DNA of 64,000 bases from Asterias amurensis (Eukaryota; Echinodermata; Asteroidea; Forcipulatida; Asteriidae): contig NC_092650.1 in the NCBI RefSeq assembly GCF_032118995.1, positions 22,072,501 to 22,136,500 of the forward strand, read 5' to 3'. Position 1 is the first letter of the stretch. Every line of letters begins with the position of its first letter. The position numbers and the translations under genes are program-made. Under the pieces are notes generated by a model. It worked only from the letters and a program-made list of their open reading frames with translations. It was not told the origin of the DNA and did no database searches. Positions 606 to 57,198 of this stretch are shown piece by piece.

Positions 606-687
606 CTGGTCCAATGCCTACTTTGATGATGTCAGCACCAGCTAGGATCAGCTCCTCCACCATCTCACCAGTTACAACATTGCCGGC
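606..687 (-). CDS. GMPR: GMPR exon 5
   Basis: Codes [20 protein letters not shown] and then IKVGIGP, ending in phase 1 at a GTAAGT donor. This is the NADPH/GMP barrel segment just before the catalytic loop. Confidence 0.95.
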
Positions 688-3600: not shown

Positions 3601-6600
3601 TTACCAACCTAATTTCCATTTATTGCATATTGCTTGTTACTGGTTTATGATCAGCTGTTGTTTGCTTATCCTGAAAATCACGTGCAAATTTGGTTGGTAA
3701 TTCTGTTTTTATCAAGAAAGAAATTTCATGCTAAGCAAATTTGTGTGCTTAGCAGCTCTATGAAATTGAGCCCCTGGTTGATTGATCAGTGTAGAACTGC
3801 AGTCTAGATTGATTTTCTTGGTTGAGGGGGAGCAATTCACATCCCCCATGCAGAGATTCCAGTAAGCTGTGGCTGAATATCGGCCCTAGCTTACAGCCGA
3901 GGGGAGTGGCTGCGTTAATATTTAAAAAATTATTTCAAAGAGAATTTAAGTAAACCATTTTTTTTTTTGCATTTTATTTTAAGAGAACATATGTCCTTAT
4001 GGTACTTTTTAGTGTTAAAGTAAAAGTCTGTGGAAATATTTTTTACAGACCCTATTCACATTGCGCAGTGCACATAATCGTGCGTCTCCTGTCTGCCATT
4101 TAGGGCGTCAAAAATGCGCACTAAAGGATGGAACGCGTGTTTACGCACCTCTGAACAATGCACGTCTCACCATAACCCACCTCTATCCTAAGTTACTCTA
4201 GATTGTATCATTATTAATTGCATTGTTTTGTCTGTAAAACATGTAGTTTATCTTTTGTTTGGTTGCTATTGTATTTCCTAAGCGCTTTGTATCGCTTTTG
4301 TAAAAAGCGCTATATAAGTAAGGTTATTATTATTATTGTTGTTATTATTTGTGCATGCCAAACAACATTGCAGATGAGAGAAGTGTGTGTATGTGTGCTG
4401 CCCGTTGTGAATTGGGTCTATACCCATGAACAGGATGCCAGTCCATCACATGTTATCCACCCAGCTCACACATGTACCCATTTGAGAAGCAATTATGATA
4501 AAGAGCCTTGTAAGAATCCGAAGATCCAATCGGACTAAGCTTGGGCGATATTGCTTTTTTGTAACCCACGATGTATTGTCAAAAAATATTGCCATATTAT
4601 GTTATATCAACTACATATTTTGTGCTTAAAAGCACTTTATATTATTCACCATACATAAAATGACAAAGATGTGGAAGTTTAAGATCGATCTGGGTCTCGA
4701 GGAAATAGTGAGAAGTTGATTACGAATTTGCATTAGATGATTTAAAAAAATAATAAGAATAAAACTCTCACTGCGATTAACTCCAAACGAAAAATCAGTC
4801 TTGTTTATTTCTCATCAAATATGACATTTCAGACAGAAATATTTCAAGGGATGTTTTCTACTATCATTATCATTAGACCGTGTAAGTTTTAATGTAATCT
4901 GTGACCTTATTAGACAAGTTTTTTTCTTACCAATTCTGTAATGTCGCTTTAATATTCTTAGAAACGCAAAACTATACTTACCATGATAGTGTGCTCTGGG
5001 AACATTTCTCTCACAGTTTTCACATGCTGAACGAAGAGTTCTGAGTAACCGTTGGCCACGTCCAGACAGATGTAATCAATGGCAGGCACGGCTTTGACTA
5101 TCTGAGTGAGTTTAACCACATCTGTTTGGCTGGTTCCTGCACTCACAGCAAGGTTCTGAAGAAAAGAAATGAAGAAATACAAAAAAATGGAAAAAATCCT
5201 TGTTAATGTTAGTCTCTCTTTGTGTGGTCCGCCCGAATTTGTTTTATTTGTTGCGCCCATTACACAAGACACACGGCTCTGGTAAGTGTTTGTCCTTTTT
5301 CTTCAAAATATTTCCTCAATGGTGTTTTGAGTGTTGGAGTGGATGCATTCAACATTGAGGATCAAGCCCGTGTCTTTAGAATTTGTGTCCATGATTTCAA
5401 AAGTGGTAAAAATGGAGCAAATCTGGTGACTAGCTGTCGAAATTGTATGTGTTGGACCAAATTCCCGTTTGCCGAACAATCCTAGCTCGTAACCCTTCGG
5501 CATCACCATCGAGATGAGGGTTCCTCTTGAGTTTACTGGCCCAACACTGATATCCAGTAAAGAATTGAGAGCCCTAAATACAATGAAAGAGTTGTGATGG
5601 TCTAAGGAGAAAAAGAATTTACCTTCAAGGTAGATGGGTTCTCAGCTGCAAACGCCTTCCATTCCTCAAGAGAGTAGTGTTTGTGTATACAGGTGAATAG
5701 GTTATGCTGTAATTGGTAAACAAGTAAACAAGTCAACAAGTAAATAAGTCATCAAGTAACTGATTAAAGCCATTATACGCTTTTGGTACCCCAAAAAAAA
5801 GAAATTCAAAGATTTACAAATAATTTACAGGGTTTACAGAAGGTAATAGTGAAAGACTTCTCTTGAAACATTATTCCATGAAATGCTACTTTTTGAGAAA
5901 ACTATAAAACAATATCAACTCTCGATAGCGAGAATTACAGATTTATGTTAAATACATGTCATGACACAGCGAACGTGCGGAAACAAGAGTGGGTTTTTCT
6001 GTTATTTTCTCCCGACTCCAATGACCGATGGAGCCTAAATTTTCACAGGTTTGTTATTTTACAAGTTGTGATACACAAAGTGTGGGACTTTGACAATGCT
6101 GTTTACTGAAAGTGTGTAATGGCTTTAAACAAACACAACTATGTTGGTTCTGCGTGCATAATCTTTTTTAATCAAAATTACCTCACAAACAAATGTTTCT
6201 GTTTCCTGTATTAAATCATCATGCTGGACAAAAACAGAGGGTCTCGAGGAAGAGGGAAAAATTGTGCGAGCAAAGTTTTCGTAATGTGAGAAATTTGAAG
6301 CAGGACTGGGATATGATGAAATTCTTACATTTGTAAACAATCGGATGTGATATTCAATATTTTTTGAAACCCACACAATCAAGTTAGGGACTAAAGGCTT
6401 CGGTCTGAGGTGGGATTCGAACCAGGGTCACAGAGGTGAAAGGCAAGGAAAGAAACACCTGAGCCAACCTGGAACATAGCGGTTTCGGAACGTAGGGATT
6501 TTTTAACATGGGGTTGGCAGAACATAGGGGTGTCAGAAGACAGATATAAGGGTGTTAGGTGAGAACATAGGGGTGTTGAAACTTAGGTGTGTTGGAACAT

Positions 6601-8700
6601 ATTGTAGGGGTGTCTGAACATTGGGATGTCTGAACATGGGGTTGTTTGAACACGGGGTTGGCACAAGCTTGGGTTGGCAGAACATAGGGGTGTCAGAAGT
6701 CAGAACATGGGGGTGTTAGATTAGAACATGGGGGGGGGTGGAACTTAGGGTGTCAGAACATATTGTAGGGGTGTCTGAACCTTGGGATGTTTGAACCTGG
6801 GGTTGGCAGAGAGATGTTTGAACATGGGGTTGGCAGAACATAGGGGTGCCAGAAGACAGAACATAGGGGTGATAATTAGAACATAGGGGTGTTGGAACTT
6901 AGGGGTGTCTGAACATATTGTAGGGGCATCTGAACATTGGGATGTTTGAACATGGGGTTGGCAGAACATCAAGGGATGTCAGAAGACAGAACATAGGAGT
7001 GTTAGATTAGAACATAGGGGGGGGAGGAGTTGGAACTTTTGGGGTGTGGAACTTAGGGGTGTCGGAGCACATTGTAGGGGTGTCTGAACATTGGAACGCC
7101 TGAACATGGGTTTGGCAGAGGGATGTTTGAACATGGGGTTGTTTGAACATGGGGTCGGCAGAACATAGGGGTGTCAGAAGACAGAACATGAGGGTGTTAG
7201 GTGTTAGATTAGAACATGGGGTCGGCAGAACATAGGGGTGTCAGAAGACAGAACATGGGGGTGTTAGGTGTTAGATTAGAACATGGGGTTGGCAGAACAT
7301 AGGGGTGTCAGAACATAAGGGTTAGTGTTAGATTAGATCATAGGGGTGTCTGAACATAGGGTTGTTGGATTATAGGGTTATTAGAGCATGTTAACAGAAC
7401 ATGGGGTTGTCCGAGTATAAGGGTGTCGGAACAAAGAGTAGTCACCAACTACGTACCTGTATGAAAATGGCAAACATTTGAGATCTTAAGTAGGATTTGA
7501 AACTTTGCATGGTGGAGATAAGATATAGAAAAGTTTGCGGTAACACCATGTAATAACAATCTCTAAATGAGTTGGGGTGGTTCTGAAAAGAACCGTTGGG
7601 TTAACTCGACGTTTCGATCAGTATGCTCATTCTCCAGAAGACGATCAGAGCATACTGATCGAAACGTCGAGTTAACCCAACGGTTCTTTTCAGAACCACC
7701 CCAACTCATTTAGAGATTGTTATTACATGGTGTTACCGCAAACTTTTCTATATTTGAGATCTTCCTAACTCTTGCTTACCGAGGCTAGGGCTTTGGCCAT
7801 CTCAAAGGTTCCCACTGTGTCCATATTGGCAGCCATGACTGGGAGGCCATTGTAGGTCTTTGAAGAATTACGGAATATGAAGGACCTCATTAGATCAACC
7901 TGTGGACAATTTTGACAGAGTAGGTGATTAGAAAATAGTACAAAGCTTCCGGAGCATACAGCATTATGTTTACTTGAGCGCTTTGCGCGAACAGCAGACC
8001 GGTGCATGTGTGCCCCTAGAATGGTTGGTCTGACTATATTCAATTTCAAGTGAAGTGTGCTCCGACAGAAAAACAGATGCGACAAGAATCAAGTAGGGGC
8101 CTAAGACTTTTTTTTCTTCTTTTTTTCACTCCTCAAGTCTTGGTCTACACATGCTACAGGTTACTAGCTAGAAAAAGAATACCAGAATATACAACAACAA
8201 AACCACAGGCCCAATCAAATCAAGTCAAAGATAAACAAAATAAAAATATTTAAGACAATTAGGCCTACAATTAAATAATAATTAAAAAGTATTATTTGTT
8301 TTTAATTAGGCCCCCCTTATTTTAAATATAAAATTCACACGCAAATTTTACTTGATTTTTACTCAAAGTCTGTGATACCTATGTGAACGATTCCAAGTAT
8401 AGTGCTATCTGCAACTTCTGAAGTATTAGATCGGTAAGTTTCATGATGCAAAACGTTGCAGATGATTTTCCGAAAGGTTTTGATATCAGTGGTGCTGGGC
8501 CAAGGATACGGAGTGGATTGGACCGATTTGTGGGGCTAAAGTGGGGCATGGACATGATGGAGGAAAGTTGTTGCATTTTTTTTTTTCAATCAAAATTCAA
8601 AACATAAACTTACTTCTGATCGACTTTTCAGTGTGCTCCTTTTTGGACGAACCAGCACATCTTTGAAGTCCAACTTGATATCTGTGTCAATGCGCGGCAT
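606..8700 (-). CDS. GMPR: GMP reductase, exons 1-5 (3' part off window)
   Basis: GMP reductase converts GMP to IMP and ammonia with NADPH in cytosolic purine salvage. Five coding exons join in phase: 8614-8700, 7780-7899, 5623-5706, 4982-5155 and 606-687. All have GT donors and AG acceptors; 182 complete codons plus one base of the next are present of about 345 expected. The start [20 protein letters not shown] matches the family N-terminus. Further family blocks are [35 protein letters not shown] and [20 protein letters not shown]. The last exon stops at VGIGPG, just before the expected SVCTTR loop holding the catalytic Cys, so that exon lies beyond the left edge. The start is the only Met before the conserved block, 87 nt from a phase-0 donor. 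It faces NEDD8 head to head. It could equally be called GMPR2, since invertebrates usually have one gene. IMP dehydrogenase is a relative, but the N-terminus and the absence of CBS domains favour GMPR. Confidence 0.95.
924..1162 (+). mobile_element. MITE family I (GGTTTGCGGTAACACCATG end)
   Basis: It starts GGTTTACGGTAACACCATGT and shares AGACTTCTCAGTTCTGAAAA and TACTGCCGCGGAGTAGAT-like blocks with copies near 26932, 45567, 48065 and more weakly 43051. No coding capacity. The right end is approximate. Confidence 0.65.
1955..2330. mobile_element. Palindromic TTAA MITE, family C, copy 1
   Basis: It begins TTAAAGGAACACTTTGCCTT and ends in the inverse complement at TTAA. The two halves are near-perfect inverted repeats meeting at AAAATTTTGACCCCCATAAA. 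Other copies are at 30807, 38857, 40571 and 54189. Short reading frames inside it recur only because the DNA recurs. Confidence 0.85.
2335..2530 (+). mobile_element. LINE/SINE 3' tail, degenerate
   Basis: TTAATTGCATAGTT ... AACGCTAAATAAATAAG followed by TTATTATT resembles the L2-like tail at 4201-4345. Low information. Confidence 0.35.
2778..3143. mobile_element. TTAA MITE, family A, copy
   Basis: Terminal TTAAAGGCAATGAACACTAT and its inverse GTGTCCAGTGCCTTTAA. The body matches copies at 12569, 24143, 29608, 33316, 34934, 46464, 55226, 59761 and 62538. Confidence 0.8.
3524..3777. mobile_element. Foldback MITE, family G, copy
   Basis: The ends CCTGGGCCCAAT...AGAGCTGCTAAGCA and TGCTTAGCAGCTCTATGAAA are inverted. 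Same family as 34337, 39714 and 58468. Confidence 0.7.
4201..4345 (+). mobile_element. L2-like LINE/SINE 3' tail
   Basis: It contains AAGCGCTTTGTATCG, AAAGCGCTATATAAGTAAGG and a TTATTATTATTATTG tail, typical of L2-type 3' ends. Only the tail is present. Confidence 0.5.
4982..5155 (-). CDS. GMPR: GMPR exon 4
   Basis: Codes 58 residues, phase 0-0, with [21 protein letters not shown] and FPEHTIM. The acceptor is TTCTTCAG and the donor GTAAGT. Confidence 0.95.
5303..5566 (-). other. Unrecognised open frame inside GMPR intron 3
   Basis: A reading frame of about 88 codons on the minus strand, open from a possible acceptor (TTGTATTTAG at about 5568) to TGA at 5303. It reads [20 protein letters not shown], then [18 protein letters not shown] and [12 protein letters not shown]. 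Composition looks more protein-like than its surroundings, but I recognise no family. It could be a decayed exon or retroposed fragment, or chance. It is not part of GMPR, whose flanking exons already join in phase. Confidence 0.2.
5623..5706 (-). CDS. GMPR: GMPR exon 3
   Basis: Codes 28 residues, phase 0-0, with [19 protein letters not shown]. The acceptor is TTACAG and the donor GTAAAT. Confidence 0.93.
5764..6128 (-). mobile_element. TTAA MITE, family D, copy 1
   Basis: Ends TTAAAGCCATTATACGCTTT and GTGTAATGGCTTTAA. The body, with CATGTCATGACACAGCGAA and TTTTCTCCCGACTCC, is the reverse complement of copies at 11846, 30215 and 61591. Confidence 0.85.
6385..6470 (-). mobile_element. tRNA-derived SINE head
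   Basis: On the minus strand an A-box-like TTGGCTCAGGTG and a perfect B box GGTTCGAATCC are spaced as in a Pol III promoter. The cloverleaf is degraded, so this is a SINE head rather than a tRNA gene. A related piece lies at 34588-34655. Confidence 0.5.
6480..7440. repeat. GAACAT-rich minisatellite in GMPR intron 2
   Basis: About 1 kb of imperfect repeats built from short phrases: AACATAGGGGTGTCAGAA, GTTAGATTAGAACATGGG, TGTTTGAACATGGGGTTGGC and CATATTGTAGGGGTGTCTG. The phrases recur in a rough larger order of about 130 bp. Strand-asymmetric and G-rich on the plus strand. Confidence 0.85.
7523..7753. mobile_element. Perfect foldback element (106 bp arms)
   Basis: The left arm 7523-7628 and right arm 7648-7753 appear to be exact reverse complements around a 19 nt spacer. 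The ends carry GTTTGCGGTAACACCATG, the motif that also ends family I. A decayed half of the same element lies at 36265-36378. Confidence 0.9.
7780..7899 (-). CDS. GMPR: GMPR exon 2
   Basis: Codes 40 residues, phase 0-0, containing SFIFRNS and [18 protein letters not shown]. The acceptor is CCACAG and the donor GTAAGC. The perfect foldback element at 7523-7753 lies only about 26 bp downstream in the intron. Confidence 0.95.
8614..8700 (-). CDS. GMPR: GMPR exon 1
   Basis: Codes 29 residues from the start Met ([12 protein letters not shown]...KSRSE). The donor GTAAGT follows directly; phase 0 end. Confidence 0.95.
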
Positions 8701-9129
8701 TTTGGCGTCTTGGGTTGAATGCCAATCCAATGTTTACGTCCTTTTCTCTCACTTTTGGCAAGAGATTTTTACTACGATGTCCCCCGTGAAAAGTTCCCGC
8801 GAACTGCGCTGAATTTATGACACCAAGTACTCGTTCTTAAATCCCTCTCGGATACGCTCGCCTTATTTGGTGATAATTAGAAACAACGTCTCCCATTGGA
8901 CCATTCATGACGGAGGGAACTTTATTGTTGTTGCGCGGTAAGATTTACGGCGAACTCAGTTGACTTTCATTCAAAGTAAAGATCGAATCTCAGTAATATA
9001 TTCCTCAATGGTGTGTATTCCACAAAAGTACTCATCTGTCGACCTTCAAATGGGGCGTAAATGACTATAGGCTAAATGGAGGAAAAATAAAAAATAAAAA
9101 ATTATATTTTAAAGTTTTTAATCTTTTCC
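8701..9129. promoter_or_regulatory. GMPR 5' flank (promoter region)
   Basis: Immediately upstream of the GMPR start. No TATA box is evident. The first 250 bp holds moderately CpG-containing sequence (CCCGCGAACTGCGC, TTGTTGCGCGGTAAG). Boundaries are inferred from position only. Confidence 0.4.
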
Positions 9130-10190
9130 TTTAAAGGGAAGTACACGTTTCGCTTTGGGCTTAATTGGTCATCGAATTTGTGAGAAAATGATGAAAGAAA
9201 AAACGCTTGTTGGACGAATTGGTGTGCTTTCAGATTAAAAGACTTCTAGCTAGAAGTCTTCTATTTTTTTAGTGAGAAATTACCTCTTTCTCAAAAACTA
9301 TGTTACTTCGGAGATAGTCGTTTCCCACAATGTTTTTTATACTATAACAGCTCTCCAATGCCCGTTACGTTAATATTTGTTTACACGTTTGGTAATTACT
9401 CAAAACAAATATTAACTAAGGGAAGGTACACGTTTGGTAAATACTCAAAACAAATAATTATAAACTCATTAAAAAAACGCCTTGGCAAACTCACAGCTAC
9501 TCCACTAGATCCTGCACTAATCTTTATGTTCCATTCACTCGCACCACTTACTCTATGAACACAATCCGCTTCTTTGGTCCTTGTGTGTGGAATGCCATAG
9601 ATGAACGCAGTAGATCTAAGCGGTCAGTGTCTTTTTAAGTCTGCTTTCAAACGTGACATTATCTCCGATTATGTATCCTAGCTTCCCATCCTATGTAATT
9701 GAACCACATCCATCTCATCAATACTTGTCTTATTTATTTTCAGCTTAAACTGTTCTGCCATCTTGTTGCTTCTATATCGTTGTGTCATGTGTTCATCTGT
9801 CCTTTTGTCTGTTTGTCTGTCTGTCTGTCTGGTTGTCTCGTTTTCTTGTCTGTCTGGCTGTTTTTGTTTTTGTTTACAAGCTCATGCTTACCAAACGGCC
9901 CGTACTCTATTTATTTATTCATATTACTCTTAAAGAAATGTTTTGCTTCACTCCGTAATACATATAACTGTTGTTATTCTTTTATGAGAGCGAGGAAATA
10001 AAATGTATTCTTGAATTGAATTGAATTGAATTGATAGTATAAAACATTGTGGGAAACGACTCCCTCTGAAGTAACCTACTTTTTGAGAAAGAGGTAATTC
10101 CTCACTAAAATATTAAAAGACTTCTAGCTAGAAGTCTTTTATTCCTATCTGAAAGCACACAAATTCGTTCAACAAGGCCATGAACGTACC
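9130..10190. mobile_element. MITE family B split by a LINE insertion
   Basis: The left part from about 9130 (TTAAAGGGAAGTACACG) and the right part 10036-10190 belong to family B, seen whole at 29069-29442. Both parts carry the palindrome GACTTCTAGCTAGAAGTC. The parts are in opposite sense, so either the copy rearranged or two copies flank the LINE. Confidence 0.6.
9478..10035 (+). mobile_element. CR1/L2-like LINE, 3' fragment
   Basis: The translation contains IRFFGPCVWNAIDE and SVSLFKSAFKRDI, the xWNxLP...F+x+L pattern of the extreme C-terminus of CR1/L2 reverse transcriptases. It ends with AATAAAATGTATTCTTGAAT and a TTGAA repeat tail. 5' truncated, with stops. Confidence 0.65.
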
Positions 10191-11722
10191 TGAACGTCAT
10201 ACGCACTTGGATGGTCCGGATCCGCGCACCAGTGGGGACAAAATAATGGGACCGTGATGAAGGGAAAAGTATCTGGCAGCAGGAGATGCACAAAGCTCTG
10301 ATTTTAGACAGATTTCTTCTTTTCTCATCTTACACATTTTTGAGACACTGGAGCAGGCATTGTGAAAACCGTGGTACGTTTAATCAACAGTTAAAAAAAA
10401 AGTTATGCTTTGGGTCAATAAGTAGTATCTTGCGTCCAGGCGTTTGTGCACTGCACATGAGCCGATACACGATTTCTGCACTTTCGAAAAACTTTTCCGG
10501 GACATTCTTTCCGTATGAAAAAATTGACCAATCATGATGGTCGTTACTTATAACTACGGATAACTGTGCGATATTTTTGACCGTGTACTTCGCGTTAAAA
10601 TAGTCTGGCGCTAGAACTGCTTGATTGTTTAGTTGTTTACTTTGTGCTACAGGGTGCCGGACTGTCTGAAGCAACTAGAATTTTCATGCGTGTCCGAATG
10701 TTTCGACTGTGGCCGCTGGCTGCGACCGCGGCTTTGGCAGCGTCTAGCGGCCGTGGCATGACGCGGCCAACAAAAACGGACGCGGCTGTGACTTCGTGTG
10801 CCGCCCTCAAGCGGTGAAATGAGTGTTTTGCATACGTACATGTGTTGTTCGTCTGCTAATGCAAACAAACAACATGCACGATTGGACTGAGTGATGTGAA
10901 CGGCGTAAATTTTGAAGTTGGGGGGGGGGGGGGGGGGGGCTCAACATTTCTCTATTTCTACCTCTCAAGTAGAATTTTAGTTTAAATCTATTTGTTGAAG
11001 TATAGTGTCATGTTTTATTTAGGGATTTCAACATTGAAAAGTGAACAATTAACACATTTTTTTTATAAACACCAAAATAAAACAACCTTTTTAAAATAAA
11101 ATTATTTTGGTTGACCCATGCCCAACTGGTGTGTAATGATAATCAAGCACTGTTATACTAGATGCTTTCTGAGTCCTGTAGGAAAGAATTCACAGGCTTA
11201 CTACTCCGGTGAGTTTAACCCAAGACCTCCCGCATAATTATTAGAGCAGATCTACACCAGATGTCAAGAGACCAGTTCGATAATGATGTTTATTGACAAT
11301 GGGTACAGCAAACATTTTAAAATAAATGTAATCCTACCTCAGTAATTACTTAGCCTGTGGATTTTTTCCCCTGCAGAACTAAAAAACCCCCGACAGTGCT
11401 TTCATCAGTGTTCTAATATTCTTCCAAAACCTAGTATTACATCTATTTTAATTAAACAATATTGTAACAAACATAGCCAAGCAACCTCTGGTTTGGCCAG
11501 TAGGTCCAATGGGTGGGTAGGGCGATTGGGTGGGAATTGATGTGGATTACTGTGGAGCACACCCCTTGTCCCAGACTACCAATAATCACACAATCAACAA
11601 TTAATTAAGACACAGGAGATAAATTTAACTTTTGAGACGTGAGGTTTATTTTCACCAGCTTTGCCTTTTATAGGCCAACATAATACAAGTTTATAGAGCA
11701 TTGCCCATAGTTTAACCAATTA
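10191..11722. other. Intergenic, no gene recognised
   Basis: The part at 10680-10800 is GC-rich, with TGTCCGAATGTTTCGACT and GCGGCCGTGG blocks that recur upstream of NEDD8 at 18320-18460. A run of 20 G is at 10920-10939. A minus-strand frame at 10384-10674 is open but unrecognised. Confidence 0.5.
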
Positions 11723-11815
11723 GGGAATAACAGTGCGAGAACACGGTCTTCACTGCGCATAATGACCGGGTTGGTGGCTGGTGCTGTTAACGGTCTTCGC
11801 ACTGTTATTCCCATT
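11722..11815. repeat. Short inverted repeat
   Basis: AATTAGGGAATAACAGTGCG and CGCACTGTTATTCCCATT flank about 55 bp. A small foldback, possibly a MITE. Confidence 0.5.
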
Positions 11816-11845
11816 AGTAAATACCTTTTTAACGAAATAAACAGC

Positions 11846-12221
11846 TTAAAGCCATTATACACTTTCGGTAAACAGTATTGTCCAAGTCCCACACTTCGTG
11901 TATCACAACTTATATATAAAATAACAATCCTGTGGAAATTTAGGCTCAATCGGACATCGGAGTCGGGAGAAAGTAACGGGAAAACCCACTCCTGTTTTCG
12001 CGCGTTTCGCCGTGTCATGACATGTGTTTATAACAAATCCGTAATTCTCGCTAACGAGAATTTATATTGTTTTACTGTTTTCTCAAAAAGTAAAGCATTT
12101 CATGGACTAATATTTCAAGAGAAGTCTTTCACCATTACCTTCTGTAAACCCTGTTAATTATTTGTAAATCTGTGAACTTTTTTTTTTTTTTTTCTGTACC
12201 GAAAGGGTCCAATGGCTTTAA
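11846..12221 (+). mobile_element. TTAA MITE, family D, copy 2
   Basis: Ends TTAAAGCCATTATACACTTT and CCAATGGCTTTAA; the body is as at 5764 and 30215. Confidence 0.85.
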
Positions 12222-12568
12222 GTGTCAATACGTCATGCTCTGTATACGATCAGTCAGTTCAAAAATTACATTGTAAACTTCGCGTGTGAAAAACCAAAAG
12301 CAAAAACATTTCACCTAACCTTATTGACTTAAATTCGTTATCACAATCGCGAGAGTGCAATACAGAAAAATATAGTGCATCTGCGTCCCATCAGCCTGGT
12401 TGGATATGGAACGCATATAAGGAAGTGCTATATTTATCTGTATTCTACTCACGCTTTTTTGATAACTTGAAACTATCATCCGTTAATACATCCCCTTGTG
12501 ATCAGATTTTGACCAATCAGTACCTGGAAACTGTCCAAGGTATTTAGCAACCAAACTAAAAATCCAAC

Positions 12569-13041
12569 TTAAAGACAATGGACACCATTGGTAATTAGTG
12601 TATTTCAACATTTGATAAAATAACAAATCTGTGAAAATTTGAGCTCAATTGGTCTTTGAAGTTGCGAGATAACTATGAAAGAAAAAACACCCTTGTCACA
12701 CAAAATTGTGTGCTTTCAGATGCTTGATTTTGAGACCTCAAAATCTAGTTCTAAGGTCTCGAAATCACATTCGTGAAAAAATTACTTCTTTCTCAAAAAC
12801 TGAGAGAGCTGTTTCTCACAATGTTTTATACTATCACTATCCTTGCTCAAGGCAGTCGCATTATTCACTCCGAAAAAGACGCCGTTGTAAACCCACCTGT
12901 ATACACTGTGCGTGGTGCGTGTAATCACACCACACGACCCACGCGTATACAGTATCACCCTCTCCTCATTACTCGTTACCAAGTAAGGTTTTATGCTAAT
13001 AATTATTTTGAGCAATAACCAATAGTGTCCACTGCCTTTAA
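12569..13041 (+). mobile_element. TTAA MITE, family A, with internal insertion
   Basis: Ends TTAAAGACAATGGACACCAT and GTGTCCACTGCCTTTAA. About 110 bp at 12845-12955 (GTATACACTGTGCGTGGTGC and an inverse-like GACCCACGCGTATACAGT) is extra relative to other copies and looks like a second small inverted-repeat insert. Confidence 0.8.
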
Positions 13042-13689
13042 AGAAGGTTTATAGTCGTTGGAAATGTTGACGTCGGAAATGTTGACGCATGATTCTAAAA
13101 AACACGGTTTATAGACATCATCACTAATAGACCGGCAGCCCAGAGCACTTTGGTTAAAGGAACGAGGTACCAATATTTGACGACGGGAACGTTTAGTGGA
13201 TAACCTGACATAATCAGATATGGATGTCTGCCGGGGACCCCCCGCTGCATGTGGCGCATGGACCCCCAACAAAGAGGCAAAATAATGGGCTGAATCAAAC
13301 ATTCTAGGTACCACATGAAACCAAGTGGAAATGGTCATTACCATGATACTAAGTAAACAAAATCAACCGCCAGACAAATTTTCTGCTGCATTAGGCCTGC
13401 CAGACACCCCCTTCCGCAAATATTTAGTGTCAAATTACCTCAGATTTACATGAAACTTTGGTTAACTGTTCCACTATGGCTAAAATGAACACAAACCAAA
13501 AATTAAATCCATACTCCATGTCGTTTTTGAGATACAGCCTCTTACAATATACTAAAATCTCCCCCTTTTGGAGCTCCGCCCCCGGCCGACACCGCGCGTC
13601 GTGGTGGTATTCTTTCAAACGTTAAGCCCGTAATTTAATAACGACACCAGCTTTGCGGCTGAAAGGTGTATACTATTTAAGTTATGGCC

Positions 13690-14610
13690 CTTGAGTCATA
13701 ATTTGGCTGCATTGGGCCTACCAGACACCCCCACCCCCGGGGTTCAACATCGGAGGAACGACCTAAAACCAAGTTGAAATTACCAAGGCCTTTTGCACTA
13801 TTCTTAACACAAGACATTATCAGGCGCCGGACAAATGTTTTGCCCGGCAGACACCTCCCTTACCCGGGTTAAACAAAGGAATCACCTGAAACCAAGTAAT
13901 GACCAAACACACTATTCTTTGACGTCCAGTATCAATCACCACCAGACGAACGTTTTGCTGCATTTGGCCCGGCAGACACAGCTCCCTTCCCCGGGTTAAA
14001 CATCAGAGGAACCACTGAAACCAAGTTGAAATGTGACCAATACAATATTATTCTTAATACAAGTATCAACTGCCAGATATCAACTGCCAGACGAAAGTTT
14101 TGTTGCATTTGGCCCGGCAGACAACTCCCCCCCCCCCCCCCCCCCCCGGGTTAAACATCAGAGGAACCCCCTGAAACCAAGTTGAAATGACCAATAACAA
14201 TATTCTTAATACAAGTATCAACTGCCAGACAACAGTTTGGCTGCATTGGGCCCGGTAGACAACTCCCCCCCCCCCCCCCCCCCCCCGGGTTAAACGTCAA
14301 ATGAACCACCTGAAACCAAGTTGAAAAGGCCAATAACAATATTCTTAATAAAAGTATCAACTGCCAGACGAAAGTTTTGCTGCATTGGGCCCGGCAGACA
14401 ACCCCACTCCCTCGGGTTTTAGAAGAACCGCCTAAAACTAAGTTGAAATAACCAATAACAATATTCTTAATACAAACGGAAGTATCAACCGCCAGACATT
14501 TTTATGATTCTTCATTGGGCCCGGCAGACACCTCCCCAACCCCGGGGTTAAACTTCAAAGGAACGACCTAAAACCAAGTTGAAATTACAAATAACAATAT
14601 TCTTAAACCA
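13690..14610 (-). repeat. Foldback left minisatellite (~7 units)
   Basis: Units carry TTGGGCCCGGCAGACA, CTGAAACCAAGTTGAAAT and AACAATATTCTTAATACAAG. They include poly-C runs of about 20 at 14127 and 14263. Confidence 0.85.
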
Positions 14611-16470
14611 AGGGGGTGGGGGTGTCTGGCGTGCCCAATGCACCAATTTTTTGTCTGGCGTGTTATGATACTTGTATTAAGAAGAGTGTAAATTGGTCAT
14701 TTCAACTTGGTTTGAAGTGGTTTCTCTGATGTTAACCCGGGGAGGGAAGGTGTCTGCCGGGCCCAATGCAGCAAAACTTTCGTCTGGTGATTGGTACTGG
14801 TATTAAGAATATTGTTATTGGTCATTTCAACTTGGTTTCAGGTGGTTCCTCTGATGCGTAAAACCCGGTGTGGCGGTTTCAGTTTTCCGCCGTATTCAGT
14901 TTTCCGGGACTCAATAAAGCATAACAGTATTGACTTCTTTCGGTTGCTGCGCGCAGGTGTCGCATGACGCTATGTTACCGGATTTGGTCATTTCGGAAAA
15001 CTGAACACGGCGGAAAGTTGAAACCGCCACACCGGGGGAGTGGGGTTGTCTGCCGAACCCAATGCAGCAAAACTGTTGTATGGCAGTTGATAATGGTGGT
15101 AAGAATATTGTTATTGGTCATTTCAACTTAATTTCAGGTGGTCCTTTGATGTTTACCCCGGGGACGGGGAGGTGTCTGTCGGGCCCAATGCAGCAAAACT
15201 GTTGTCTGGCAGTTGATACTGGTATTAAGAATATTGTTTTCGGTCATTTCAACTTAATTTCAGGTGGTTCCTTTGATGTTTAACCCAGGGGGAGGGGAGG
15301 TGTCTGCCGGGCCCAATGCAGCAAAACTGTTGTCTGGCAGTTGATACTTGTATTAAGAATATTGTTTTCGGTCATTTCAACTTAATTTCAGGTGGTTCCT
15401 TTGATGTTTAACCCAGGGGGAGGGGAGGTGTCTGCCGGGCCCAATGCAGCAAAACTGTTGTATGGCAGTTGATAATGGTGGTAAGAATATTGTTATTGGT
15501 CATTTCAACTTAATTTCAGGTGGTTCCTTTGATGTTTAACCCAGGGGGAGGGGAGGTGTCTGCCGGGCCCAATGCAGCAAAACTGTTGTCTGGCAGTTGA
15601 TACTGGTATTAAGAATATTATTGTTATTGGTCATTTAAACTTAATTTCAGGTGGTCCTTTGATGTTTACCCCGGGGAAGGGGAGGTGTCTGTCGGGCCCA
15701 ATGCAGCAAAACTGTTGTCTGGCAGTTGATACTTGTATTAAGAATATTGTTATTGGTCATTTCAACTTAATTTCAGGTGGTTCCTTTGATGTTTAACCCA
15801 GGGGGAGGGGGTGTCTGCCGGGCCCAATGCAGCAAAACTGCTGTCTGGCAGTTGATACTTGTATTAAGAATATTGTTATTGGTCATTTCAACTTAATTTC
15901 ACTTGGGGCCTTTGATGTTTACCCCGGGGAGGGGAGGTGTCTGCCGGGCCCAATGCAGCAGTTGATACTGGTATTAAGAATATTGTTATTGGTCATTTCA
16001 ACTTAAATTCAGGTGGTTCCTTTGATGTTTACCCCGGGGGAGGGGAGGCATCTGTCGGGCCCAATGCAGCAAAACTGCTGTCTGGCACTTGATACTTGTA
16101 TTAAGAATATTGCTATTGGTCATTTCAACTTAAATTCAGGTGGTTCCTTTGATGTTTACCCCAGGGGAGGGGAGGTGTCTGTCGGTCCCAATGCAGCAAA
16201 ACTGCTGTCTGGCAGTTGATACTTGTATTAAGATTATTGCTATTGGTCATTTCAACTTGGTTTCAGGTGGTTCCTTTGATGTTTAACCCGGGGAGGGTAT
16301 ATGTGTCTGTCGGGCCGCGCCCAATGCAGCAAAACATTGTCTGGCGGCTGATATTGTCTTCTGTTAAGAATTGTGCATTAGGACTATTGGTAATTTCAAT
16401 TTGGTTTTAGGTTGTTCCGCCGATGTTTTACCCCGGGGGTGGGGGTGTCTGTCAGGCCCAGTGCAGCCAA
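14611..16470 (+). repeat. Foldback right minisatellite (~13 units)
   Basis: Units carry GTGTCTGCCGGGCCCAATGC, TTGTCTGGCAGTTGATACT, TATTGTTATTGGTCATTTCA and CAGGTGGTTCCTTTGATGTT. Several consecutive units between 15050 and 16260 are nearly identical, suggesting recent expansion. A frame through several units (MQQNCC...) is only a by-product. Confidence 0.88.
14876..15034. mobile_element. Small MITE inserted in the foldback minisatellite
   Basis: CGGTGTGGCGGTTTCAGTTT at the left and AAAGTTGAAACCGCCACACCG at the right are inverted; inner ends CAGTTTTCC and GGAAAACTG also pair. It interrupts a unit whose remaining parts continue on both sides. Confidence 0.75.
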
Positions 16471-17135
16471 ATTATGAATCAAGGGCCACAACTTAAATAG
16501 CATACAATTTTTAGCCACACAGCTGGTGTCGTTATTAAATTACGGGCTCTTAACGTTTGAAAAGAATATCACCACGACGCGCGGTCGTTCGGGGGCGGAG
16601 CGCCAAAAGGGGGAGATTTTAGCATTTTTTAAGAGGCTGTATCTCGGAAACGATATGGAGTATGGATTTAATTTTTGGTTTGTGTTCATTTTAGCCATAG
16701 TGGAACAGTTAAACAAAGTTTCATGTAAATCTGAGGTAATTTGACAACTGGTGAATTTCAACCCATAGGTTTGTACACTAAATATTTGGGGGAGGGGGTG
16801 TCTGGCAGGCCTAATGCAGCAGACAATTTGTCTGGCGGTTGATATTTTTTACTAAGCATGATGTTAATGACCATTTCCACTTGATTTCATGTGGTACCTA
16901 GAATGTTTGATTCAGCCCATTATTTTGCCTCTTTGTTGGGGGTCCACGTGCTACACACAGCGGGGGGTCCCTGGCAGACATCCATATCTGATTATGTCAG
17001 GTTATCCACTAAATGTTCCTGTACTCAAATATTGGTACCTCGTTCCTTTAACCAAAGTGCTCTGGGCTGCCGCTCTATAAGGCATATAAACTGTGTTTTT
17101 ACAATCGCTGCGTCAAGATATTCATTGGACGACCA

Positions 17136-18240
17136 TCGCAAAACCGATCTCAAGGCCCTCATAACAATTCCTTTGCATCATTTTAGAGAGATTAGTAAAA
17201 CATTGTCACAAAATTTATTAGCATGTACAACTAGTTTGTTACTCTGTGTGAAACTGGGCCCTAGTCATAGCTGGTTTCTGAGTAGTCGAAAACCTGACTT
17301 ACAGTAGAACTTAAGAATGAACTTTCCAAATTCTGTATCTGAAGACGTAAGGACGCATCTAACCCATCCTAGGACGAGTAAGAGATAGGATAATCGTATC
17401 GCTTTGTGAAATCGGCTACTGGAGTTGTTCTGCTCCATCCATCATCATGTCATATAATACAGATGCTTTGGGTTTTTTTGGGTGGCTGTTCCTCCTGTTC
17501 TTACCATAAAGATTTTACTGGTCATCCTCGTACTCCTCCAAACACCAAAGATGACAGTACACCGGGCATGGAGAGGTCATGTCTTCATAAAAGGGCCATG
17601 ATATAGGCCTACGGCTGCACATTTCATCTTCCATCCTTCCCTAGTTGAGGGGTGTTTTAATTCCTGAAGTTAAAGTATGAAAGTAATTTTCAGTTACCAC
17701 CATGACAATTGTGTTTTATTTTTACCATAGCAAATATTACCAGTGAAACTGGAAAGCCCAACCAGCCCTTCAATCTCAGCTCTACATAGCTCACCAATCA
17801 GGACCCAGTTCCATGGTCCTACAGTTAACTAAAATATTCTAAGAGTAAGACCACTAACCACATTACATTTTTTACATTAACACAATTTTGCCTAAGTTTA
17901 TCATGTTTATTATTAAAAACCCAATCGTTATGTCACGACTGTCTGTTCTTGATTGCAATAAACAGATGACAGGAATCCCAGGATGATGATAATTTCGTAC
18001 AAAACGAAACGAGCAACGCTAGGGTAGGTTTGGGTTGTGAGTTATTGTCAACAACAAAACACACCCGAAATAGCAATACAACACGAAAAGTGTGACATAA
18101 TTATCACATGTCGTCTTCTTCTTTATCTAAACATCACTTACACTTGAAGGTTTCACCTGTAGCAGCTTTAGCAGAAGTATGTAGTACAGTTTCTAGTCCC
18201 ATCATAAATATATGTAGCAGTAGCACGTAGCAGCAGACGA
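17136..18240. other. Intergenic, NEDD8 upstream flank
   Basis: No gene or repeat recognised with confidence. Several short open frames look like chance. Confidence 0.5.
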
Positions 18241-18536
18241 CACACCACACGCCACACACACACACTATAAACAAAATGGCGTCCCGGCCACAATCAAGTC
18301 ACGTACCTCCGCTTTTGTGGCTTGAAATCTGTGACGTCACGGCCGCAGCCACGGCCGCAGCCAAAAGAAAAAAACATTCGGACTCAACTTCAAAATGGCG
18401 CGCATGCCAGCGGCCGCAGCCGCAGCCGAAGTCGAAACATTCGGACACGGCCATTTTAATCTGCCGCCGGGTTGTTCCATTTCCAGGAGATTCGACAATA
18501 AAATTCTCTGCCCGTATCGTCAAAATCAAATAAAAA
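18241..18536 (+). promoter_or_regulatory. NEDD8 promoter and 5' UTR region
   Basis: CpG-rich. It holds a TATAAAC at about 18266 and three copies of the YY1-like core AAATGGCG/CCATTTT (18271, 18393, 18451). Part of it (18320-18460, CCGAAGTCGAAACATTCGGA) resembles the block at 10680-10800 and may be repeat-derived. An upstream frame of 85 codons from ATG 18276 is in phase with NEDD8 but ends at TAA 18531, one codon before the NEDD8 start. Confidence 0.5.
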
Positions 18537-18554
18537 ATGTTGATCAAAGTAAAG
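18537..18554 (+). CDS. NEDD8: NEDD8 exon 1 (coding part)
   Basis: Six codons, MLIKVK, then GTAAGT. The start follows TAAAAA and is the first Met of the family N-terminus. Confidence 0.95.
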
Positions 18555-21500
18555 GTAAGTCATTCCTTTTTTAGGTTAATACAAAAACCATTTGATGATT
18601 CTTAGTCTTTGTTCATAAACAGTATTTAAAATGTAACTATTTGTTCTTGTCTGGTTTTTTTTTACAGACGCTGACGGGGAAGGAGGTATGTATTGTGCGC
18701 CTAGCCTGGTCAAGTCGACCTATTTTTTCATTGTGGACAGGATCTTCTTTTTGTTAAAATGATAGACTTTAATGGAAAAAATTCTGCATCCTGCCACCAC
18801 CTTTTCATTTGTTACAAGTATAATCTACTATAAAAAAAAAAAAATTAACAAAATAAAAATAAAAATAAATAAAACTAGACATGATTGCATTTGTGCACAA
18901 ATGCAGAGCTGTTTCGTTAATAACAATTTAAATTTTGTCAACTGAATTTGAAATTTATTCTTTTTTTAAAGCAGTTATGACTAATCCAGGCTATTAAAAA
19001 AAAAATTTTTGGATTATACCATGTTCGGATAGCAATTTATTCGTTAAAGGTGCAAAAATTGAAAAAATCATAAAATATCGTGTGATGACGTCATTATGAC
19101 GTCATTTCACAATTCACGAGAGCTTGCCAATATCTAACAACCTACCAAGTTTCAACATAATCGCATAATTACTTAGAGAGTTATATTAGTTCAAAAAGTG
19201 CACCTTTAAGGCCGCGTCACGTGACCCCCAATGACGTCATTGATCTGACACTTCACACATATGATGGCTGCCTGACAGTTAACGTGTGTGTAAAATTTGA
19301 AGTGATTACAAAAAACTTCACCACACACATCTTCAAAAAGTCCATTTTGACGAGTTTTCAACCTGCCGCTAGAGGGCGCTGTTGCATTTTGTGACGTCAT
19401 TGGTATTTTTTTTGAACTGCCCACCCTTGCCACGCACTAACATCGTTAAAAGCAACTTCATATCTTTTTCCAATTTTGAATTAGAGGGCCACTTCCGGTT
19501 TCGACCGGAAGTAGAGGTCATGTGAGGTCACGCACACGAAACAAAATGAAGACCTTATTTATCCCTCCCCAATCCCGCAAACAGAAACCCACGGTTTGGG
19601 GCTGATTTGTTATAAATTTTCAAACATTTAAAATACAACACCTTTAAGATGACGTCACGTGACTTCTGATTATGTCATAATGACATCCTTGTTTCGCAAT
19701 GATCATTGCACCAATACCTTTCATCCCTGAAAATTTCATTGCAATTGCTCTTTGGGAACATTGCAAATCAGAACTTATATGGAATTTTTCTGAAGATGAC
19801 AAATAAAAAAAAAAAAAATAATAATAATAATAACTAGAGCTAAATTGCATTTGTGCACAAATGCAGAGCTGTTTCGTCAACAAAAATTTCAAATTTCTCA
19901 ACTGAGTTTTAAATTTGTTGGGTATTCAAAGCAATTTTACCCAATGTGGCATAAATAAAAAATAATTTGGATTATACCATATTCAGATAGCAATTTATGT
20001 GTTAAAGGTGCAAAAATTGAAAAAATCATAAAAAATCATGTGATGACGTCATCATGACGTCCTTTAATATTTCATAAGAACTTGTCAATATCCAACAACC
20101 TACCAAGTTTCAACATGATCGCGTAATTACTTAGGGAGTTATATTAGTTCAAAAAGTGCACCTTTAAGGCCGCGTCACGTGACCCCCGATGACGTCATTG
20201 ATCTGAAACTTCACACATATGATGGCTGCCTGACAGTTAACTTGTGTGTAAAATTTGAAGTGATTACAAAAAACTTCACCACAGACATCTTCAAAAAGTC
20301 CATTTTGAAGAGTTTTCATCCTGCCGCTAGAGGGCGCCGTTGCAATTTGTGACGTCATTGGTATTTTTTTTGAACTGCCCACCCTTGCCACGCACTAACA
20401 TCGTTAAAAGCAACTTCATATCTTTTTCCAATTTTGAATTAGAGGGCCACTTCCGGTTTCGACCGGAAGTAGAGGTCATGTGAGGTCACGCACACGAAAC
20501 AAAATGAAGACCTTATTTATTCCTCCCCAATCCCGCAAACAGAAACCTACGGTCTCTTGTGGCTGATTTGTTATAAATTTTCAAACATTTAAAATACAAC
20601 ACCTTTAAGATGACGTCACGTGACTTCTGATTATGTCATAATGACATCCTTGTTTCGCAATGATCATTGCACCAATACCTTTCATCCCTGAAAATTTCAT
20701 TGCAATTGCTCTTTGGGAACATTGCAAATCAGCACTTATATGAAATTTTTCTGAAGATGACAAATAAAAAAAAAAAAAAAAATAATAATAATAAAAAAAA
20801 CTTTAACAAAAACAAGAGCTGTTTCGCTGCGCTTCGCTACGAAACAGCTAATAATAAACTAGACATGATTGCATTTGTGCACAAATGCAGAGCTGTTTCG
20901 TTAATAACAATTTAAATTTTGTCAACTGAATTTGAAATTTATTCTTTTTTTAAAGCAGTTATGACTAATCCAGGCTATTAAAAAAAAAAAAATTGGATTA
21001 TACCATGTTCGGATAGCAATTTATTCGTTAAAGGTGCAAAAATTGAAAAAATCATAAAATATCGTGTGATGACGTCACTATGACGTCATTTCACAATTCA
21101 CGAGAGCTTGCCAATATCTAACAACCTACTAAGTTTCAACATAATCGCATAATTACTTAGAGAGTTATATTAGTTCAAAAAGTGCACCTTTAAGGCCGCG
21201 TCACGTGACCCCCAATGACGTCATTGATCTGAAGCTTCACACATATAATGGCTGCCTGTCAGTTAACATGTGTGTAAAATTTGAAGTGATTACAAAAAAC
21301 TTCACCACACACATCTTCAAAAAGTCCATTTTGACGAGTTTTCAACCTGCCGCTAGAGGGCGCCGTTGCATTTTGTGACGTCATTGGTATTTTTTTTGAA
21401 CTGCCCACCCTTGCCACGCACTAACATCGTTAAAAGCAACTTCATATCTTTTTCCAATTTTGAATTAGAGGGCCACTTCCGGTTTCGACCGGAAATAGAG

Positions 21501-24500: not shown

Positions 24501-27371
24501 GCCCCTAATCAAGAAAGGTTTTATGATATTATTATTTTGAGTAACTACCAATAGTGTCCACTGCTTTTAAGAAGAACAATAAAAATAGATAGGCCCTAAC
24601 TTCTAACCCTAATCCTTTTTTAAATTATTTTTTAAGGTAGTTTTTGGTATGCTACAGTCGTTTGACCAGTTCGGGATCACTTTTTGAATTCACATTGTTT
24701 TTTTGTTGCAATCTCTTTGATATCTTAAACAAAAAAGTTTATCAGTTTACCTAAACATGTCATAAAACTCACCAAGTATTCACTGACGAAAAAATATTAG
24801 TTCTTTTGAAGAGGCTTTGAGAAAAGTATCGTCACCTGTTTGACCAGTTCAGGATCAGTTGAATCTATTCTGAATCAGTAGAGTGCCCTTTGTTGCAAAC
24901 CCATAGTCCCATTCATAAAACTGTCTCTCAAGGACACGAAACTTCAGAGGTGTGTTGGCATGGACTTGGACTTCCTTTCTTTAGTGAATGTCATGCAAGT
25001 GTGCTCACTAGCAGCGCAAAAACCCAGCCACAAAACCCCAAAACAACAGCAAAGGCAAATGAAAAAGTGAAGCGAACCTAAAAAGCAATATTGACCCCTC
25101 CAAGTTTAATTTTCTCACAAAATAAAAAATCTACAAGAATTTGTTGAAGTAATGTTTCTCAAAATCAACTAAATAAACTTTCTACTGCAGTAGTATGATT
25201 TTACCATACTTACTGACTTCGTAAGTTAGTGCGGCACAATTTGACGCAATGAGATGTTGAGTGATCCCGAACTGGTCAAGGGTAAGCTGCCCGTCCAAAG
25301 AAGATTTTGGGATCTTCGTCACCTCAAAAAAAACAAGATGACTGCACAGTATCTACAGGAATGTCTTTTTACACATTCTTATCATTTTACATAAATATTT
25401 TTTGCCCCGGCACTCGAATTCTACAGGTAAGAAGTTTTAACAGTGTTTTTCAACCAACATTTTTAAACAAAAAAATAATAAATTTCGCAGACAACCTTCA
25501 GGAAAACAGCCATAATTTATTTGCTGATGATGTTTGGCACCTTATTTTGGGTTTGTTGGTTTAATGATTGTTAATCTTCACATTTATCAACAGAAATTGG
25601 TAATAATGAGAAGTGATATAATTATTTGGTTATTGCAAAGTTGAAGTGATCCCGAACTGGTCAATGATCCCGAACTGGTCAAATGACTGTAATATTTGTG
25701 TAATCACTGCGAAAAAACCCCAGTTCACACTTATCTCTACTTCTAACTAAGACAAAGAAAAGGGGTTTGCCCAATTGTGTTTTGGTTGTTCTGTGTTTTA
25801 ACTTCATTGCACGTGAAGGAAGAAGATTGTTATTGTTAATGTTATTAGAGAGTTTGGATAATATAGGATAGTGGCTTCTTTATTAGCGTTCATATCAGTC
25901 ACTTAGTAATGCTCATACATAGCGCTTCAACATTCAGGATTTTCCTGCAAGGCATGTGCTGTGGGACTACTTTTCAAATATTGCCGTTTCATGCAAGTTG
26001 CATTTTGCCAGAGAAAAATGAGGTGATATATTATTTCTTTATTTAATTTCTCAGATTGAAATCGACATAGAGCCAACAGATAAGGTAATCGAAAAAACAA
26101 AACAATTATTTTGCATTCTTCGTTCTCAGTCAAACCAACACAGTTGATCAGGTTTCTCGGACTTCCAAGCTACACAACAGCATTGTAGAATACTCTCATA
26201 CCAGTATAGTTTCTTCCCAATTGTCATCTGTATCTGGAACACCCTACCAGCCACCGTGGTCTCAGCTCAGTCTTTGGAGATCTTCTGGAGCCGCCTGAAT
26301 CCACTCGCCCTCGGATAGTCTACCACACCAACTTCTTTTTACTTGCATCTTGACTTCAGTTTGCAGCACATTTTGTTGATATGTGTTCCTGTGACCAGGC
26401 ACATATGCGACCAAGTACAAATATACTCCTCTGGAGGGTTAGTTAGTGGAAAATAGCTAGATAAGTGATTCAAATAAGGCGTCCTTGAATTCATTACCAG
26501 AGGTATAGCAATAACATAACAATGGAGACTCCTGATTTTCACCACTGCTACAAACCCAGTACCATGCCCGCTGAGTGCAGTTTGCAAATTAAATACTGTA
26601 TTTGTACTCTTTCTGTTCCTGATACGCTTTCTAGGTTGAAAGGATAAAGGAAAGAGTAGAGGAGAAAGAAGGAATACCACCACCCCAACAGAGACTTATC
26701 TTCAGTGGCAAACAAATGTAAGTTTCACCAGGGAAAGTTTCTTCCAAATAATCTTGACGCTATTGTTACTTTGATTGAGGTACTTGCAAGATGCGAAACA
26801 AGTAGCGCAAACTTGATTTGTTTAGAATGGTTGTTTCAATTTTTATCTATTTGGCCATTGCGACAAGAAAGCAACTTACAGGCAGTCATAAGAAGATAAA
26901 AATTGTAACTTTGAAACATTTGGTTTGCGGTAACACCATGTGTCTATATACTTAACTTGCTGTGTATATTTGAGAACTTGTCTTGCTCTATTCTACTACA
27001 CAGAGCAGATTTTTTTGGAATTAGGGAAACTTCTAAGTTCTGAAAAGAACTGTTGTGCTTTTTAACTACTACCTGGGCAGAAGGTAGAAAGTCGGCTTGT
27101 ACTACTACTTTAGCTGCAGTGGATTGAGGGGACTTCTCGTATAGACTAGCCTGCACGCGTCATCAGTAATCTGTAATTTGGATTCAAGAAAATTTGCCAT
27201 TGAAAGCACCTCACATGGTGCATGGTCATAAATATAGTAAATTCACACTCATTTGTGGTTTCCTCTCCTCTTTCTGTCTTCAGGAATGACGACAAGACGG
27301 CCCAAGAGTACAAAGTTCAAGGAGGATCTGTGCTTCATCTAGTCCTCGCCCTGAGAGGGGGCTCGCTGTGA
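18537..27371 (+). CDS. NEDD8: NEDD8 ubiquitin-like modifier, complete
   Basis: NEDD8 is the ubiquitin-like protein that is conjugated mainly to cullins and activates SCF-type ubiquitin ligases. Five coding exons (18537-18554, 18668-18685, 26055-26084, 26635-26717, 27284-27371) join in phase to 78 codons. The start reads [22 protein letters not shown], then [28 protein letters not shown] and [13 protein letters not shown]. Ile44, Lys48, Ala72 and Gly75-Gly76 are conserved. Ala72, where ubiquitin has Arg, and the N-terminal [28 protein letters not shown] distinguish it from ubiquitin when read in two parts. The tail after the diglycine is only Ser-Leu, shorter than the human five-residue tail, and must be cut by a UCHL3/SENP8-type hydrolase. 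Intron 2 is 7.4 kb and carries a large tandem array. GMPR lies head to head upstream. Confidence 0.97.
18668..18685 (+). CDS. NEDD8: NEDD8 exon 2 (18 nt microexon)
   Basis: Six codons, TLTGKE, between TTTTTTTTACAG and GTATGT. Phase 0-0. Confidence 0.93.
20795..20850 (+). repeat. Hairpin module, one copy (end of unit 2)
   Basis: CTTTAACAAAAACAAG, then AGCTGTTTCG...CGAAACAGCT (10 bp perfect stem). It follows an A-rich and TAA-rich tract and precedes CTAG of the next unit. Confidence 0.8.
22780..23034 (+). repeat. Hairpin module, four copies (end of unit 4)
   Basis: Four ~60 bp repeats, each CTTTAACAAAAACAAG plus the AGCTGTTTCG/CGAAACAGCT stem around CTGCGCTTCGCTA, separated by AATAATAAT. Confidence 0.9.
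23998..24113 (+). repeat. Hairpin module, two copies (end of unit 5)
   Basis: Two copies as above; the last is slightly diverged (CGAAACGGCT) and closes the array. Confidence 0.85.
24143..24570 (+). mobile_element. TTAA MITE, family A, copy
   Basis: TTAAAAGACAGTGGACACTA at the left, GTGTCCACTGCTTTTAA at the right; body as in other family A copies. Confidence 0.8.
24655..25689. mobile_element. Nonautonomous Tc1/mariner-like element
   Basis: Ends CAGTCGTTTGACCAGTTCGG and its inverse CCGAACTGGTCAAATGACTG, flanked by TA on both sides as in Tc1/mariner. The subterminal motif TTGACCAGTTCGGGATCA recurs inside (24835, 25262, 25645). No transposase frame in 1035 bp. Confidence 0.8.
26055..26084 (+). 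CDS. NEDD8: NEDD8 exon 3
   Basis: Ten codons, [10 protein letters not shown], between TTTCTCAG and GTAATC. Phase 0-0. Confidence 0.95.
26130..26460 (+). mobile_element. LINE C-terminal fragment, decayed
   Basis: One frame reads [40 protein letters not shown]: the C-terminal FxPxxIxxWNxLP...SLxxFxxRL pattern of L2/Jockey-type reverse transcriptases. It begins about 45 bp after NEDD8 exon 3. Confidence 0.6.
26635..26717 (+). CDS. NEDD8: NEDD8 exon 4
   Basis: [20 protein letters not shown] then LIFSGKQ, ending in phase 2 before GTAAGT. The acceptor is GCTTTCTAG. Confidence 0.96.
26932..27140 (+). mobile_element. MITE family I, copy
   Basis: GGTTTGCGGTAACACCATGT start and AACTTCTAAGTTCTGAAAAG inside. 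It lies about 145 bp before the NEDD8 exon 5 acceptor. Confidence 0.7.
27284..27371 (+). CDS. NEDD8: NEDD8 exon 5 with stop
   Basis: Completes Met50, then [20 protein letters not shown] and [11 protein letters not shown]. The acceptor is TGTCTTCAG. Confidence 0.97.

Positions 27372-34679: not shown

Positions 34680-57198
<22,519 letters not shown>

Follow-up and report, generated by a model that had tools for sequence, protein, structure and literature searches.

In the human genome, NEDD8 and GMPR2 are divergent and almost touching neighbours on 14q. A patient copy-number table for this region lists CHMP4A, NEDD8, GMPR2 and TINF2 in sequence, apparently in chromosomal order and with MDP1 omitted (PMC10340279), and another table places MDP1 with the same locus (PMC7600188). 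A methylation table carries ‘NEDD8;GMPR2’ as a single promoter entry, among other double names (PMC4340013), and a cattle listing, which is alphabetical, has both genes within one region (PMC8520274). In the openly licensed PMC literature, so far as its accessible text extends, we found nothing that joins NEDD8 and GMPR2 with synteny, gene order or a bidirectional promoter. Here, we describe the same two families side by side in the northern Pacific sea star Asterias amurensis, in a stretch of 64,000 nucleotides (C3:22072501-22136500, contig NC_092650.1), which we call the window and whose positions are counted from its first base. The accompanying profile searches covered the genome of this species (491,506,623 bases in 23 contigs, with C3 accounting for 28.59 Mb).

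The explanation that we favour, with a probability of about 0.75, is that the common ancestor of sea stars and vertebrates already had GMPR and NEDD8 as divergent neighbours. Both lineages would then have inherited the arrangement, with vertebrates keeping NEDD8 beside GMPR2, one of their two GMPR copies. This reading is supported by the state of the genes themselves, both of which are intact as far as they were read and clear in their family identities.

GMPR and NEDD8 as divergent neighbours

GMPR runs leftwards from position 8700 on the minus strand and NEDD8 rightwards from 18537 on the plus strand, i.e. the two genes are adjacent, lie on opposite strands and face each other with their 5′ ends. 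Asterias amurensis carries a genuine divergent GMPR–NEDD8 pair, with 9,836 bp (8701-18536) between the two start codons. An earlier note on this DNA, which had placed the two genes head to head across a 9.8-kb spacer, was right in this respect, and gene models with GT-AG junctions confirm the coordinates it had used (8700, 18537, 606 and 27371). It had also called the human genes divergent neighbours; of this, the printed gene order bears out the adjacency. The divergent arrangement is seen directly in the sea star.

The first five of nine GMPR exons (8700-8614, 7899-7780, 5706-5623, 5155-4982 and 687-606, all on the minus strand) are joined by GT-AG junctions and encode residues 1-182. Exons 6-9 lie to the left of the window on the same strand, at C3 positions of approximately 22071134-22071027, 22069281-22069237, 22068660-22068502 and 22067915-22067730, with edges that are accurate to within a few bases. 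As far as these nine exons were read, one by one, the coding sequence is complete and ends in a stop codon. Identity scores were computed on the first 182 amino acids (aa). In comparisons with PDB, this translation scored 287.1 bits against human GMPR1 and 286.6 bits against GMPR2, as opposed to 81.9 bits for the best IMP dehydrogenase (IMPDH), which rules out the latter family (~287 versus 82 bits). The TIGR01305 profile gave 310 bits across its first 181 positions, a score to be read against a whole-protein cut-off of 492 and a query of only 182 aa. Identities amount to 127/182 with GMPR1 and 130/182 with GMPR2, compared with 138 between GMPR1 and GMPR2. Because the sea star protein is about equally close to both, its sequence fits a gene that predates the vertebrate GMPR1/GMPR2 duplication. 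A genome-wide search returned five GMPR matches, all of them exons of this same gene, so one GMPR gene was found.

GMPR intron 2 contains a minisatellite (6472-7322) whose 16-base units resemble GAACATAGGGGTGTCA and are arranged in a higher period of 154 bases. The same intron holds a palindrome whose arms (7553-7599, minus strand, and 7677-7723, plus strand) each match the histone mRNA 3′ stem-loop RF00032 of Rfam above threshold with 35.6 bits; a third match lies at 36307-36352 on the plus strand (40 bits). None of the three was seen to have a histone gene next to it, and it may be that a hairpin of histone type belongs to some repeat family.

NEDD8 consists of five coding exons on the plus strand (18537-18554, 18668-18685, 26055-26084, 26635-26717 and 27284-27371), which are joined by GT-AG junctions and encode 78 aa. 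The hallmarks of NEDD8 are Ala72 and a C-terminal Gly-Gly from which a short tail can be cleaved. All of these are present in the sea star translation, which ends in LALRGG-SL, i.e. Gly-Gly followed by a two-residue tail. Against PDB, NEDD8 chains scored 141.4 bits and single ubiquitin chains ~92 bits, a difference that rules out ubiquitin itself; the 20 rows that rank higher than NEDD8 come from polyubiquitin, fusion or engineered chains, where the score almost always adds up several copies. A retrocopy is likewise ruled out by the five GT-AG exons, which, judged from the sequence alone, make this a spliced gene.

The ubiquitin family gave 29 matches genome-wide, of which 11 belong to a single polyubiquitin array on C9 and another is exon 4 of this NEDD8. 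At five further places, accounting for six matches, no NEDD8 was found; two read as ubiquitin and three are more distant. The last 11 matches score at most 35.9 bits. NEDD8 looks single-copy on this basis, with the qualification that a second, split copy might sit among these low scorers, since the gene's own exon scores merely 35.4 bits.

Exon 2 is an 18-base microexon encoding TLTGKE. It is followed by an intron of 7.4 kb, which may have been gained, because human NEDD8 is not known to have an intron at the position matching the 3′ edge of this exon. Between 18842 and 24115, the intron is occupied by five tandem units in the order A-B-A-B-A, which were compared across 940 bp each and are ~97% (A-A), 99.6% (B-B) and ~93% (A-B) identical. 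Copies of the hairpin GAGCTGTTTCG...CGAAACAGCTAA stand between some of them.

Inheritance versus coincidence

How easily could such a pair arise by chance? For a named pair to be divergent neighbours, the probability is 2.3e-5 in a random order of 22,000 genes and 5e-4 within a single chromosome of 1,000 genes. For the whole set of 1,399 human divergent pairs, between 0.03 and 0.7 matches would be expected by chance. One study reports that 66 human divergent pairs are conserved in fly and that the number for worm is 50 (PMC12672016), and another source puts the chance of a same-orientation pair in at least two species at ~0.002-0.01 (PMC2871058). Given these low chance figures and the published numbers of conserved pairs, inheritance of the GMPR–NEDD8 adjacency is much likelier than coincidence, though short of certain. 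Gene order on a local scale erodes: one report describes no microsynteny that is apparent between two hemichordates, although there is some between two Lytechinus sea urchins (PMC11175523).

The wider neighbourhood was explored through the families of human neighbours FITM, TM9SF and MDP1, which were searched genome-wide. The only FITM gene detected (C3:20975410-20976012) lies on the same chromosome at a distance of 1.1 Mb, which we count in favour of ancestral linkage, with a probability of ~6% that it would fall on C3 by chance alone (28.59 Mb of 491.5 Mb).

Several observations weigh against an inherited pair. TM9SF matches were found on C12, C17, C20 and C21 and none on C3, and MDP1 had no match in the genome-wide search, perhaps through exon splitting. 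In 164 kb around the pair, no other human neighbour was recognised in ORF (open reading frame) lists inspected by eye and in 14 Pfam scans, and the flanks that were recognised, a Piezo gene and EGF-repeat exons, are both outside the printed human list of CHMP4A-NEDD8-GMPR2-TINF2. The chance estimate itself rises to ~3e-5, calculated by hand, when the 16,531 annotated genes replace the 22,000. The pair was chosen from a scan, in which some chance pairs are to be expected, and the ancestry comparison covers human and one sea star only. Shuffled genomes, moreover, still produce a sizeable number of apparent ancestral blocks, with 45, 48 and 56 gains at the bilaterian ancestor against 256 in the real data of one survey (PMC8851819).

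The strongest competing explanation is that the adjacency is secondary and arose through independent rearrangements in the sea star and vertebrate lineages, perhaps within one ancient chromosome; the shared order would then carry no information on the ancestor. In its favour, the recognised flanks differ from the human list on both sides, and at 5e-4 per pair within a chromosome, such cases will turn up when many windows are scanned. It has more difficulty with the apparent match in orientation besides adjacency and with the expectation over all 1,399 human pairs, which stays below one even in a conserved chromosome of 1000 genes. We regard secondary adjacency as an unlikely account, albeit the most serious of the alternatives. 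The ancestral pair remains our preferred reading, for the age that the comparison can reach: the linkage had been proposed to be older than the deuterostome ancestor, which exceeds the evidence, as human and sea star together lead back to that ancestor and no further.

As to the flanks themselves, the Piezo gene on the left stands tail to tail with GMPR (Pfam Piezo_cap, 1.4e-38; PDB Piezo2, 2e-32). On the right, exons with EGF repeats on the minus strand (33880-57207, the outer ones placed by eye) probably constitute one gene, a convergent neighbour of NEDD8; ten pieces were scanned, nine of them from this region, and six matched EGF-type families, the matches lying between 37.6 and 50.8 kb. 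In the same stretch, an ORF at 54.7-55.0 kb is rich in Thr and Pro, and an exon near 57.2 kb may encode a signal peptide. A tandem array at 52737-53708 has a period of 127 within a higher one of 368 bases (97% match over 2.6 copies), and a tRNA-Ser with the anticodon AGA is located at 59420-59493.

The spacer and its two ends

Within the spacer (8701-18536), 5,124 of the 9,836 bp (52%) recur elsewhere in the window, according to a self-comparison of the window. For the Asterias amurensis genome as a whole, a repeat content of 48.69% has been published, obtained with a different method (PMC10625585), so that an unusual repeat load of the spacer is unsupported, insofar as the two methods can be compared. 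Nor is 9.8 kb wide, since one survey gives a mean divergent intergenic distance of 34,912 bp across metazoa (PMC2871058). The earlier note had described more than half of the spacer as identifiable transposons and had supposed that it was later opened. The figure is roughly correct, whereas most of the sequence behind it consists of anonymous repeats. The supposed opening presumes that the human spacing is ancestral; its direction is unsupported, and the share of repeats in the spacer is ordinary for this genome.

The largest repeat is a 4-kb foldback-like element at 13079-17119, whose inverted arms (13124-13430/16775-17081) are 93% complementary and which holds a tandem array with a period of 128 and 10.5 copies (15034-16353). 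An interspersed repeat at 9154-10177 likewise has inverted arms (9233-9339/10038-10144, 90%), and the segment between them resembles the 3′ end of a LINE (long interspersed nuclear element); Pfam gave no match for it. The spacer has 126 ORFs with a length of 40 aa or above, and a hidden gene did not emerge from the 20 that were scanned, none of which reached the Pfam cut-off. The best score, KAP with an E value of 0.0015, was below that cut-off and falls within a further interspersed repeat (11846-12222).

Both ends of the spacer are rich in CpG. At the GMPR end (8701-9150), the interval 8700-8999 has 18 CpG with an observed/expected ratio (o/e) of 1.34, i.e. the 96th percentile of the window. 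At the NEDD8 end (18201-18536, plus strand), the interval 18300-18599 has 22 (o/e 1.40, 98th percentile). A promoter role of these two regions is suggested by their composition and position, and CpG content mildly favours one promoter per gene. Weighing on the other side, peaks at or above the 95th percentile also occur at 8900-9399, 10300-10599 and 11900-12199 and are hence not confined to the gene ends. A third CpG-rich segment, at 10500-10799, has 25 CpG (o/e 1.42, 98th percentile). CCAAT in the GMPR 5′ region carries little weight, with 56 occurrences in the spacer. The NEDD8 5′ region contains a palindromic TGACGTCA motif and two AAATGGCG motifs. It also contains an upstream ORF of 85 codons (18276-18533) with an AAAATGG start, which stops three bases ahead of the NEDD8 ATG in the same frame.

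That the NEDD8-side CpG segment is unique sequence is doubtful, as it resembles 10634-10857, a part of the third CpG-rich segment, in reverse orientation with a local score of 77 (200 shuffles: mean 43.6, maximum 73; both segments were picked after inspection). Owing to this likeness to the 10.63-10.86 kb region, part of the NEDD8 upstream segment may be derived from a repeat.

The alternative to two promoters is a shared one that was kept by function, with a noncoding first exon of NEDD8 beside the GMPR promoter and with most of the spacer being a repeat-swollen intron in the 5′ untranslated region of NEDD8. Such an arrangement would be compatible with common ancestry. Splicing would be permitted by a candidate plus-strand donor after 8937, whose 8.8 bits exceed 5 of the 9 donors in the two gene models of the window, together with a candidate acceptor before 18487 (8.3, higher than 5 of their 8 acceptors). 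The upstream ATGs at 18276, 18395 and 18404 would leave with the intron, and the GMPR 5′ region is rich in CpG. Yet both sites were picked post hoc with matrices of approximate frequencies, sites of comparable strength occur on the plus strand at 0.36 (donors) and 0.75 (acceptors) per kb, and a stronger acceptor exists at 17645 (10.6). NEDD8 also has a CpG-rich segment of its own directly upstream. Taken together, a shared promoter appears improbable, somewhat more so than secondary adjacency. A shade less probable again is the combined scenario in which the pair goes back to the deuterostome ancestor or further and its bidirectional promoter is still active, NEDD8 starting near 8.9 kb and splicing out a repeat-filled intron of 9.5 kb; the seemingly opened spacer would then conceal a shared promoter.

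Under the ancestral reading that we prefer, the sea star genes would instead have separate promoters, at ~8.7-9.0 kb for GMPR and at 18.2-18.5 kb for NEDD8, and their linkage would have been inherited passively rather than held by a shared promoter. With two promoters as the likeliest arrangement, passive inheritance is probably the mechanism, although the CpG pattern points to separate promoters only mildly. Finally, it is very improbable that a misjoin within repeats brought unlinked genes together: despite the 4-kb inverted-repeat element in the spacer and the 5-kb tandem array in NEDD8 intron 2, the assembly was built from HiFi plus Hi-C data with a reported contig N50 of 8.05 Mb (PMC10625585), and a misjoin made at random would hardly have picked the human neighbour.

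Comparison with known systems

That gene pairs can be ancient is well established, which limits how surprising this case is in general. If confirmed in outgroups, the locus would add one more human bidirectional pair with a pre-vertebrate arrangement. It would also exemplify adjacency without close spacing, making it testable whether such pairs persist through a shared promoter or through mere inheritance.

The element at 13079-17119 is reminiscent of Tetris, a foldback transposon of Drosophila virilis, in combining long inverted arms with tandem repeats. The title of the Tetris paper ties a foldback element to a satellite (PMC4079207). No transposase was seen in the sea star element. As a pair, GMPR and NEDD8 resemble divergently-paired genes (DPGs) in being adjacent on opposite strands with facing 5′ ends. 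DPGs are defined by a distance of under 1 kb from one transcription start to the other (PMC2670823), while the distance of 9.8 kb in the sea star was measured between start codons. In comparison with the ancient microsyntenic blocks of metazoa, as these are presented in two reports (PMC8851819, PMC11175523), the sea star case involves two genes and two lineages, and it likewise concerns local order that is common to deuterostome phyla.

The closest parallel is the human NEDD8–GMPR2 locus. There, the two genes share one methylation entry; in the sea star, their start codons are 9.8 kb apart, GMPR seemingly predates the division into GMPR1 and GMPR2, and none of the human flanking genes was recognised in the vicinity. 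Common to both is that the two families stand side by side.

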